Source: Gammaproteobacteria bacterium (GTDB lineage: Bacteria > Pseudomonadota > Gammaproteobacteria > DRLM01). From it: a stretch of DNA of 34,373 nucleotides. The stretch is from NCBI GenBank assembly GCA_919903055.1, contig CAKKSB010000114.1:1-34373 (forward strand), written 5' to 3'. How positions within the stretch are numbered: the stretch's first letter is position 1; each line of letters begins with the position of its first letter. Below, in pieces: positions 18,875 to 22,426 of the stretch. The notes under the pieces are model-generated. The model had not been told where the DNA came from. It worked only from the letters and a program-made list of their open reading frames with translations, and did not search any database. A program made the position numbers and the translations under genes.

Positions 18875-19258
18875 TTAGGATGGGTGATCTTCCCTTCCCG
18901 TGGCCATGCCATCAATCACGTCCAGCAACGATTTCCGTTTGCGCGGGCTGAGGCCGCGGTAAAGATCCAGCAAACGCTTCTCGTCAGAACTCAAACGCGA
19001 TTCGGCCCCGCTGTAAGCCGGCCGCTCATCCCGCACAGCGGGGTCGTAACGCATCTCACCGCGCCCGGTAGCCAGCCATTCAAAACGCACGTCCAGCACC
19101 ACCGCCACGTGGGAGAGATGCTCTACCTTGGGATGGGTGCCACCCTCGCTCTCCCATTGAATACAGGCGCTGGGATGCACCCCCACCCGCCGCGCCAATT
19201 CGGACTTGGTCATCACCACCGCCTCACGCGCCAACTTGATACGTTCCCCGATTTCCAT
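18875..19258 (-). CDS. XRE/Cro-CI-type HTH transcriptional regulator
   Basis: MEIGERIKLAREAVVMTKSELARRVGVHPSACIQWESEGGTHPKVEHLSHVAVVLDVRFEWLATGRGEM; canonical HTH_3 pattern. Confidence 0.85.
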   Translation of the reverse strand: MEIGERIKLAREAVVMTKSELARRVGVHPSACIQWESEGGTHPKVEHLSHVAVVLDVRFEWLATGRGEMRYDPAVRDERPAYSGAESRLSSDEKRLLDLYRGLSPRKRKSLLDVIDGMATGREDHPS

Positions 19259-19324
19259 CCAACTCAACCTGCCAAAAATACGGCTCTGATTATTAGCAGT
19301 GACCGGCAGCTTGCAATGTAAGTG

Positions 19325-19360
19325 TTGCTAACTTGACATTTATTTAGTAATTCTTATAAT
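19325..19360 (+). promoter_or_regulatory. Consensus sigma70 promoter with overlapping inverted repeat (candidate operator)
   Basis: TTGACA (19333-19338), 16-nt spacer, TATAAT (19355-19360); TTGCTAA (19325-19331) and TTAGTAA (19344-19350) form a 6/7 inverted repeat flanking the -35. Confidence 0.75.
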
Positions 19361-19456
19361 TGAAGTCGATGCGCAGACGGACTCTCACTCTCGACCACAA
19401 CCGTGTCGGCCACAGCCGTACCTCGCATCCCGTGTTCGCCAAGAAAAAGGAACCCT

Positions 19457-19657
19457 ATGCGCATCATCACTTGCAGACCCGGCCATTCGGTGGAGATCAA
19501 ACTAAAGACGCCCGCCTCATCTCAACTCCCGGCGTATCAATTATTCGCGTACGAGAGCATCGAGATTTTCGTCGGGAGGGTAAAAGAGCATGAAATAAAA
19601 CTGGCGGTCATGGCACCCCGCCAATTCGCGGTTTTACACAATCATTATTGGTGCTGA
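19457..19657 (+). CDS. Divergent CsrA-family protein, RsmN/RsmF-like (insertion between beta2 and beta3)
   Basis: MRIITCRPGHSVEIKLKTPASSQLPAYQLFAYESIEIFVGRVKEHEIKLAVMAPRQFAVLHNHYWC; SD AAGGAA upstream; hand alignment to CsrA [47 protein letters not shown]. Confidence 0.7.
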   Translation: MRIITCRPGHSVEIKLKTPASSQLPAYQLFAYESIEIFVGRVKEHEIKLAVMAPRQFAVLHNHYWC

Positions 19658-19787: not shown

Positions 19788-20174
19788 TTAGCCCCTCGCC
19801 TCCGTGCGAGGCTGCTGTAAATCGTCTTTCAGCGTGAGAAACAACAAGGCATTCGCCTGGGCATTCACCGGATTGAGGCGAATACCCACGCGAAAATTTT
19901 GATAGGCACGCATGCTCACACCCACCCGGTCCGAGCGTACGCACCACATTACCGTTCCGTCCAAATCCGACCGCCATCCTTCCGTGGTGTAGCGCACTTT
20001 AACTTGCGAACCGCATTCCAAAGGCGAGGGCACATCCAAACCGATACCCGACACGCAGACGTCGTTGGCACGGATGTAGTGATACTCGCGTTCACCATCG
20101 ACCAAATGAAAAGCGCCGCCAGTGAAATATTTTGGAATGGGTAAGCGTGAGTTTGACCGACTGTCAGTGAACAT
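19788..20174 (-). CDS. PilZ-like domain protein
   Basis: MFTDSRSNSRLPIPKYFTGGAFHLVDGEREYHYIRANDVCVSGIGLDVPSPLECGSQVKVRYTTEGWRSDLDGTVMWCVRSDRVGVSMRAYQNFRVGIRL; PilZ-like layout; SD GGAGGG upstream of ATG 20174. Confidence 0.6.
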   Translation of the reverse strand: MFTDSRSNSRLPIPKYFTGGAFHLVDGEREYHYIRANDVCVSGIGLDVPSPLECGSQVKVRYTTEGWRSDLDGTVMWCVRSDRVGVSMRAYQNFRVGIRLNPVNAQANALLFLTLKDDLQQPRTEARG

Positions 20175-20336
20175 GATTCTGTTTCCCTCCTTGCGGCTGG
20201 CAAGCTCCATTACTATAACTCAAGCGCCAGAATGACGGCGCATTATTAACAACGGAACCGATAATGCAAAGCACATACCAGTTTAAAGCGTGCTGGAATA
20301 GGACTTTAACTATTCAACTCGCCACTCATCCGAGCT

Positions 20337-21542
20337 TTAACTAACGGTGAATGCCTGTAAAGTGTCCTGAATCTGATCGAGGGCGTTATCTATTTGTTGG
20401 CGGGTAATGACCAAGGGCGGCGCGAACCGCACGACGGTGTGATGGGTTTCCTTACTGAGTATTCCCCGCTGCATGAGCGCCTCGCACAAAGCCCGCGCGG
20501 AAACCCGGACCGTATCTACTTCCAAACCGATCAATAAACCTTTGCCGCGCGCCTCGCGTATCAGAGGGCTGTTTATTTCCCGCAAGCGTCCCAAAAAATA
20601 ATCGCCCAACTCGGCGGCCCGCTCGGCATACCGGTCTTCCAACATTACATTGACGGCTTCCAAGGCCACCGCCGACGCCAGCGGATTACCGCCGAAGGTG
20701 CTGCCGTGATCGCCGGGCTGAAACACCTCCATCACTTCGCGGCGCGCGAGGAAGGCGGACACCGCCAGCAACCCACCGCCCAAGGCCTTGCCGAGCACCA
20801 CCCCATCAGGTTTTACGCCGTCGTGCGAACACGCGAACAGCGCGCCGGTGCGCGCCATGCCGGTTTGAATCTCGTCGCAGATCAACAATACATTATATTT
20901 TTTGCAGATGCGGGCGCACTCGGCGAGATAGCCCACCGGTGGAATCACGATGCCGCCTTCACCTTGAATGGGCTCAACTAGAAACGCCGCTGTATCGGGC
21001 GTAATCGCCGCCTCCAAAGCCGCCGCGTCACCATAGGCAACGCGTTTCATGCCGGGTGGAAACGGTCCGAAACCCTCGCGATATTGCGGCTCCGAAGAGA
21101 GGCCGACCACGGCGATGGTGCGACCGTGAAAATTGCCGTCGCAGGCGATGATCTCCGCCCGCTCCGGCGCGACGCCTTTTACGGTATAGGCCCATTTGCG
21201 CGCGGCTTTCAACGCGGTCTCCACCGCCTCGGCGCCGCTGTTCATGGGCAGCGCCATATCGAAGCCGGTGATGTCACAAAGTCGCTGTAAAAACGGCGCG
21301 AGCCGGTCCGAATAAAATGCCCGCGACACCACCGCGAGTCGCGCCGCCTGTTCACTGAGCGCGCGCACCAGGCGCGGATGACAATGGCCATGGCTCACCG
21401 CCGAATAGGCGCTCATCATATCGAGATAGCGTTTGCCCTGATCGTCCCACACGTATACGCCCTCGCCCCGCACCAGCACTACCGGCAAGGGCGCGTAGTT
21501 ATGCGCGCAATAACGTTGTTCGAGTTGTATCGTAGGGTTCAT
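20337..21542 (-). CDS. rocD: Ornithine aminotransferase (class III PLP)
   Basis: EQRYCAHNYAPLPVVLVRGEGVYVWDDQGKRYLDMMSAYSAVSHGHCHPRL...MNSGAEAVETALKAARKW...LICDEIQTGMARTG...VVLGKALGGGLLAVSA. Confidence 0.93.
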   Translation of the reverse strand: MNPTIQLEQRYCAHNYAPLPVVLVRGEGVYVWDDQGKRYLDMMSAYSAVSHGHCHPRLVRALSEQAARLAVVSRAFYSDRLAPFLQRLCDITGFDMALPMNSGAEAVETALKAARKWAYTVKGVAPERAEIIACDGNFHGRTIAVVGLSSEPQYREGFGPFPPGMKRVAYGDAAALEAAITPDTAAFLVEPIQGEGGIVIPPVGYLAECARICKKYNVLLICDEIQTGMARTGALFACSHDGVKPDGVVLGKALGGGLLAVSAFLARREVMEVFQPGDHGSTFGGNPLASAVALEAVNVMLEDRYAERAAELGDYFLGRLREINSPLIREARGKGLLIGLEVDTVRVSARALCEALMQRGILSKETHHTVVRFAPPLVITRQQIDNALDQIQDTLQAFTVS

Positions 21543-22426
21543 TCATCCGCTCCCGCACTTACCGCGCACAAAATACGCCGCAGCAAACGCAAGGTCATTT
21601 GATCGTGGTCGAGGTGCGGGTTGTATTCGGCGATTTCCAACGCCAAGCAATTTTGATCATAGCGTGTCGCCGCCAGCGCCCGCACCAGTTCATCGGCGCC
21701 GATCCCTTCGGGGGAAGGCGTACCCACGCCGGGTGCGTCGCGAGGATCCAGCGCGTCCAAATCCAAGGTGATTCCATAACCGGCGCTAGCGCCCGAGACC
21801 CGCGCCACGGCTTCCCGCCACACCGTCGCGAAACCGCGCCACGCAACCTCGTCCATTAAAATTACCCGCACGCCCAAAGCAGCCAACAACGCCGCCTCGC
21901 CGGCTTCGAAGCTGCGCACACCCAACAAACACACATGAGCGGGATTTAATTTCGCGGCCGGGCCGGCGAGATGCGTCAGCTCATTTAAACCGTGCCCCAA
22001 TAAACACGCCAAAGGCATACCGTGCAACGCACCGCTGGGACTGGTTTGCGGCACGTGACTGTCCATATGCGCATCCACCCACAGCAAGCCGAGAGTGCCG
22101 CGCTCGGCCACCGCGCCGTACACGCCGCTCCACGTACCCACCGCGCACGAATGATCGCCGCCGATGACGATGGGGAAATAATCGGCCGACACGCACCGTC
22201 GTACCGCACTCGCCAAGCGTTGATTAATCTCCACTACCGCCGCGGTCACGTCACGTTCGGTCGAGGGCGGCGCGGCGCGTAAAATTTCATAAGACGGTGG
22301 AGCATGTCCCTCCGACGCGAGACAGGACAACGGCATCGTCGCTAATAACCTATCCGGCCCGTCTTCGCAGCGCCGGTCGCGGGCGCCCCAACCGCTGGCG
22401 ACGCCGATCAATGTGAGGTCTTTCAT
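21539..22426 (-). CDS. rocF: Arginase
   Basis: IVIGGDHSCAVGTWSG, LLWVDAHMDSHVPQTSPSGALHGMPLACLLGHG, GITLDLDALDPRDAPGVGTPSPEG, ALEIAEYNPHLD; Mn-binding motifs; overlaps the aminotransferase start by 4 nt. Confidence 0.93.
   Translation of the reverse strand: MKDLTLIGVASGWGARDRRCEDGPDRLLATMPLSCLASEGHAPPSYEILRAAPPSTERDVTAAVVEINQRLASAVRRCVSADYFPIVIGGDHSCAVGTWSGVYGAVAERGTLGLLWVDAHMDSHVPQTSPSGALHGMPLACLLGHGLNELTHLAGPAAKLNPAHVCLLGVRSFEAGEAALLAALGVRVILMDEVAWRGFATVWREAVARVSGASAGYGITLDLDALDPRDAPGVGTPSPEGIGADELVRALAATRYDQNCLALEIAEYNPHLDHDQMTLRLLRRILCAVSAGADE

Follow-up and report, generated by a model that had tools for sequence, protein, structure and literature searches.

A conserved gammaproteobacterial relative of insertion-type CsrA proteins with substitutions at RNA-contact positions

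The window, by which we mean the whole 34,373-nucleotide stretch of DNA analysed, contains the gene order Hsp15-like, divergent XRE, CsrA-like and PilZ-like, which it shares with three related Gammaproteobacteria (G001, G002 and G003). The gene under study, identified as an insertion-type CsrA paralogue by its translation, orthologues, dN/dS, profiles and predicted structure, occupies 19457..19657 on the + strand, stop included. Positions 19457-19654 translate to 66 amino acids, identical to the protein quoted in the original prediction. An orthologue search, which that prediction had proposed, recovered the protein with the same neighbours from two congeners (G001 and G002, 86% and 73% identity) and from another genus of the same family (G003, 42%). 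Between the window genome (G000) and G001 the dN/dS ratio was 0.07, and against G002 it was 0.11, with an excess of synonymous change in both comparisons (Fisher p = 3e-11 and 6e-10, respectively). Each alternative frame is interrupted by stops somewhere among the three congeneric genomes, and the gene has no indels among the four genomes. The open reading frame at 19457-19657 is a genuine conserved gene.

A sigma-70 promoter, TTGACA-16-TATAAT, lies at 19333..19360 (+), matches the consensus at 12 of 12 positions and is conserved in both congeners in the upstream alignment; even at a looser 9-of-12 threshold, only 0.9 sites would be expected in the region. A Shine-Dalgarno-like AGGA follows at 19447..19450 (+), with AAGGA conserved in both aligned congeners. 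Relative to the window, G001 has a leader shorter by 26 nt, and because this difference is no multiple of three, it fits ATG 19457 as the start. A terminator 3′ of the gene was unsupported (z = -0.8), an Rfam scan around the gene returned no RNA family, and PADLOC gave no match for the CsrA-like protein and only generic HTH matches for XRE. A search of IMG/VR viral contigs recovered nothing related to the window protein or to the f2/f44/f46 group, and thus gave no sign of phage origin. The same genome keeps a canonical CsrA (G000:C110, 94 bits), which therefore covers the ordinary function.

The divergent XRE/HTH_3 regulator, a conserved neighbour, is encoded at 18875..19258 on the - strand (Pfam HTH_3, 8e-9); its listed open reading frame, 18875-19267, begins with TTG, and the ATG at 19258 is the likelier start. 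A 16-bp inverted repeat at 19313..19328 (+), GCAATGTAAGTGTTGC, with the pattern GCAAY-N6-RTTGC, is a candidate XRE operator. It sits 4 bp 5′ of the -35 element of the CsrA-like gene and extends over the -35 element predicted for the XRE gene. The pattern was observed once in the window, with 0.3 occurrences expected, and has counterparts at equivalent positions in G001-G003 and in G005, a genome without the CsrA-like gene. There the PilZ-like, XRE and Hsp15 genes are present, and the ~165 bp from the PilZ-like gene to XRE leave no room for a CsrA-like gene. Because the repeat is kept in this gene-less genome, it is probably XRE's own operator. Obligate pairing of the CsrA-like gene with XRE is ruled out, as G005 has XRE alone; XRE may still control the gene where both occur, judging from position only.

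Several features of these surroundings deserve mention in their own right. In G005, a long imperfect palindrome, GCGTCTAAC...GTTAGACGC (L130:1419-1459), surrounds the XRE operator where the CsrA-like gene is absent. The divergent PilZ-like protein of the window (19788-20210, -) is under tighter constraint than the CsrA-like gene (dN/dS 0.03); Pfam PilZ matched its G005 orthologue at 1e-10 and gave no match for the window and G003 copies. On the - strand at 20337-22426, a class-III aminotransferase gene shares 4 bp with a gene of the arginase family, and the two look like a pair from an arginine/ornithine pathway.

Taken singly, the window protein scored poorly against curated families: E = 0.0024 and 18.2 bits for Pfam CsrA (PF02599), where the curated cut-off is 27, and E = 0.0027, again under the cut-off, in NCBIfam. 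With the single-sequence Pfam score below its threshold, the hand alignment to CsrA offered in the original prediction was insufficient. Profile-profile comparison (hhalign) was made with two reference alignments, A6, comprising 10 canonical CsrAs, and A7, comprising 16 insertion-type proteins including RsmN and Pseudomonas-type relatives, with the window clade left out and an RsmN sequence that agrees with PDB 4k59/4kji. Against A7 the window clade scored 72.1 (1.5e-14), where 200 column shuffles reached at most 19.5, and against A6 it scored 32.7 (4.2e-6), with at most 15.6 in 200 column shuffles. In the A6 alignment β1-β5 are homologous, and a 17-column gap falls exactly at the claimed β2-β3 insertion. 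An A7 profile search of the window genome retrieved the open reading frame at E = 8.5e-9. A single-sequence phmmer search of the PDB gave no match for the window protein, and the 4-sequence clade profile against the PDB gave nothing useful. The predicted alignment over both halves of CsrA is thus borne out against both references, and of the two profile checks originally proposed, PF02599 and RsmN-type, the former stayed under its cut-off and the latter succeeded. The window protein is homologous to insertion-type CsrA (P. aeruginosa RsmN/RsmF), and part of the insertion-type branch is missed or scored too low by the present Pfam and NCBIfam models.

We then turn to the predicted structure. 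With the four orthologues as input, AlphaFold2 gave a monomer model of the window protein with a mean pLDDT of 84.7 and the elements β1 (2-6), β2 (11-16), helix (26-29), β3 (36-43), β4 (46-52) and β5 (57-62); the model of the G003 orthologue, 42% identical, has the identical element order, with its helix at 26-32. In a Foldseek search of the PDB, the top four matches were RsmN/RsmF chains (probability 1.00, TM 0.67-0.72), and the next hit stood at 0.18; the E-values of the four were 0.01-0.05, the chain being very short. Because these E-values are modest and RsmN, released in 2013, may be in the AlphaFold training set, the model supports the fold and is no proof alone. Predicted strand β1 (residues 2-6, RIITC; 19460..19474, +) places R2 and C6 at CsrA L2 and R6, in the model as in the alignments. 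The inserted β2-β3 segment spans residues 17-34 (KTPASSQLPAYQLFAYES; 19505..19558, +) by the alignment gap and the AF2 models, so that the ~17 extra residues predicted at the RsmN/RsmF helix site are matched by gap, modelled helix and Foldseek chains alike. The chain ends 4 residues past β5 without a C-terminal helix, as is typical of RsmN. Ten Pseudomonas sequences are marked by Gly-Ile where the inserted helix ends (PMC3791407); most other insertion-type proteins have GPI there, and the window clade, with S/N/T/P-I, does not. The monomer fold is probably RsmN-type, as modelled, and by analogy with RsmN the protein is probably dimeric. The two points on which the original prediction had been staked therefore came out in its favour: a CsrA-fold match was found by profile-profile comparison and in the predicted structure, and orthologues exist under purifying selection.

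CsrA proteins are regarded as GGA binders requiring R44. In RsmN, L4 and L6 pack against the G bases, R62 contributes stacking and phosphate binding, R8 and E64 form a salt bridge, and the GG bases are read mainly via backbone amides (PMC3791407). The R62A mutation lowers RsmZ-2 affinity >1,000-fold, and RsmN fails to complement a csrA glycogen mutant of E. coli (PMC3791407). Across the A7 proteins (n = 16), the columns of RsmN L4, R8, A54 and R62, equivalent to CsrA L2, R6, A36 and R44, are invariant. All four members of the window clade instead carry R2 and C6 at the CsrA L2 and R6 positions; the R44/R62 position reads H, H, H and Q, and the E46/E64 position H63, H63, Q63 and P63. In the window protein the alignments place H61 and H63 at these last two sites, within the C-terminal HNHYWC (19637..19654, +). 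The original prediction had read I, C and H for L4, R6 and R44; the readings stand (I4, C6, H61), L4 to I is a conservative change that does not belong among the altered contacts, and two replacements had been missed, L2 (RsmN L4) to R2 and E46 to H63.

On these alignments, three invariant RNA-face positions and the salt-bridge partner are replaced with the fold kept, and high-affinity binding of canonical ANGGA is likely lost. As GG is read mainly via backbone amides, the side-chain changes could leave some GGA binding intact. Clade-invariant columns make up 25 of 50 in residues 1-50 and 1 of 16 in residues 51-66 (Fisher p = 0.0025), which makes the R44-bearing β5 end the least constrained part; the C-terminal HN(H/Q)xWC is nevertheless conserved within the genus. 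Net charge is +2.8 for the window protein and -1.2 for the G003 orthologue, in which RNA-suited positive charge is not kept. A metal site formed by C6, H61, H63 and C66 was rejected as a clade-wide feature, since G003 is without three of the four.

Comparison with known systems places these differences in context. The window protein shares with RsmN/RsmF (PDB 4kji, 4krw, 4k59) a ~16-18 residue β2-β3 insertion with a helix, a truncated C-terminus and its status as a second CsrA-type protein beside ordinary CsrA. It departs from them in overall sequence (~21% identity) and in having R2, C6, H61 and H63 for RsmN L4, R8, R62 and E64; ANGGA binding is demonstrated for RsmN/RsmF, whereas for the window protein its sequence makes such binding doubtful. 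Canonical CsrA/RsmA/RsmE (PF02599) can be aligned with it from β1 to β5 over both halves but lack the 17-residue insertion, retain a C-terminal helix region and the L2/R6/R44/E46 set, and are not left below the Pfam and NCBIfam cut-offs as it is. The gammaproteobacterial insertion types (L005, L024, L030-L038 and others) have in common with it the insertion, with an L-F core before β3, and a profile, yet mostly retain L2, R6 and R44, unlike the window clade. Family f144 (L025, L027, L029, L113) resembles the window clade in being without R6 and R44 and in lying divergent to a DNA-binding regulator gene; it differs in that the regulator is Arc-type and the gene stands beside a Dyp peroxidase gene, and common descent of the two is weakly supported (81/12).

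The RsmN-like proteins treated in PMC3791407 and PMC7366521 come solely from Pseudomonas and all carry the Arg62 equivalent. When 369 genomes of the class were searched with the four-member window-clade alignment, many CsrA-like proteins proved to carry a β2-β3 segment that matches that of the clade in length and core, and a full-length insertion-type protein was present in about 26 of the 369, from 16 families. Weak matches L006, L007 and L009-L016 were discarded as lying inside other genes or being of unconfirmed kinship. The insertion-type branch is much wider than the Pseudomonas set of those two papers, and the window clade, known from four genomes, is part of it and not isolated. Absence of R44 among insertion types was seen only in f1 (the window clade), f144 (also without R6) and f78 (R6 kept); the open-access literature covered yielded no R44-less CsrA. 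In a 37-row tree, support was 98/90 for the window clade, 100/99 for f144 and 81/12 for f1 with f144, and the insertion types fell on one side of the branch from five canonical CsrAs (98/82), over 69 columns that include the insertion itself. Grouping f1, f144 and f78 together is compatible with the data (p-AU 0.33), and since it is not rejected, one or several losses of R44 are possible.

We propose that the gene encodes a small RsmN/RsmF-like regulator that would work beside the ordinary CsrA of the same genome. The inserted β2-β3 helix would redirect the chain within an RsmN-type dimer, and the change of L2, R6 and R44 to R, C and H/Q, with the R6-E46 salt bridge gone on both sides, has rebuilt the face. 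With contact face and salt bridge replaced, ANGGA binding is most likely lost, and a face that no longer binds ANGGA with high affinity would serve another ligand. The favoured ligand is a different RNA, over a protein partner, contacted perhaps through the invariant R2/C6 edge of β1 and the conserved β3-β4 hairpin. A strong conserved promoter beside the divergent XRE operator would drive the gene, and XRE may set its level. As a whole, the proposal of a CsrA-fold regulator with an altered face and altered RNA recognition has, in our estimate, about an even chance of being right. Somewhat more tentatively, the clade may have dropped GGA recognition and put the dimer scaffold to another use, with either a novel RNA motif or a DNA-binding regulator as ligand, and this may have happened on more than one occasion among Gammaproteobacteria.

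Two readings would remove the premise of this proposal. Chance resemblance in a short β protein without CsrA kinship would agree with the sub-cut-off Pfam score and the empty phmmer search of the PDB, but it is scarcely credible given profile-profile scores far beyond all 200 shuffles, a collinear full-length alignment that includes the insertion, and a fold search that names RsmN only. Decay of a duplicate, or a non-coding frame, might be suspected from the divergent C-terminal third of the G003 protein and the missing gene in G005; dN/dS of 0.07-0.11 with Fisher p <1e-9, stops in the other frames, the absence of indels in four genomes and the conserved promoter and ribosome site largely refute it, and we consider it very improbable.

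The remaining alternatives accept the fold and concern its ligand. The original prediction had posed a paralogue with different RNA specificity against a non-RNA-binding relative; the contacts are gone, and the evidence chooses neither. A CsrA fold without RNA binding could act by protein contact, perhaps partnering or modulating a DNA-binding regulator such as the divergent XRE: the R44-less window clade is divergent to an XRE regulator in 4 of 4 genomes, R44-less f144 to an Arc-type regulator (Pfam Arc, 1.4e-16), insertion-type L031 carries a fused HTH domain, and one f144 protein is acidic (pI 5.1). Yet in G005 the XRE gene, its operator and the genes on either side are all present in the absence of the CsrA-like gene, and XRE is therefore independent of the CsrA-like protein; the fused L031 retains R44; and the promoter region is often all that divergent neighbours share. 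The links of insertion types to DNA-binding proteins (XRE, Arc-type, L031 HTH) are suggestive only, and protein contact strikes us as conceivable though rather unlikely. A smaller chance attaches to GGA RNA still being bound RsmN-style, with His or Gln for Arg44 and the β5 backbone providing recognition. The mostly backbone-amide contacts to GG in RsmN (PMC3791407), the ability of His to stack and bind phosphate and the conserved predicted fold would allow this; the >1,000-fold affinity loss of RsmN R62A (PMC3791407) argues against it, as do the additional changes to R6, the salt bridge and L2 and the fact that none of the other 16 insertion-type proteins departs from L2, R6 and R44. Altered RNA recognition, itself an even prospect, is thus preferred over both. 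If it holds, retention of the fold without the contacts across a conserved clade would mean that the CsrA scaffold is reusable, and the clade would help delimit which CsrA residues matter and provide a natural test of CsrA-fold ligands.

The class-wide search also surfaced several unusual arrangements of insertion-type genes. In G136, L031:1237-1695 (-) joins an insertion-type CsrA domain (R44 kept) and a C-terminal HTH_31 in one open reading frame, with Pfam CsrA and HTH_31 both above cut-off; no such fusion was found in three other genomes of the same family. In G344, L121:1198-1863 (+) encodes tandem insertion-type CsrA-like domains in one protein, a possible single-chain dimer, of which domain 1 is apparently without the R44 arginine and domain 2 has it. 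In four f144 genomes (L025, L027, L029, L125), the R44-less gene has a Dyp-type peroxidase gene on one side and a divergent gene for an Arc-type regulator on the other. Finally, G082 carries two insertion-type copies, L123 and L124, with R6 kept and R44 absent; encoded close to the L124 copy are a fragment of a C-5 cytosine DNA methylase and a 343-aa protein without a Pfam match.
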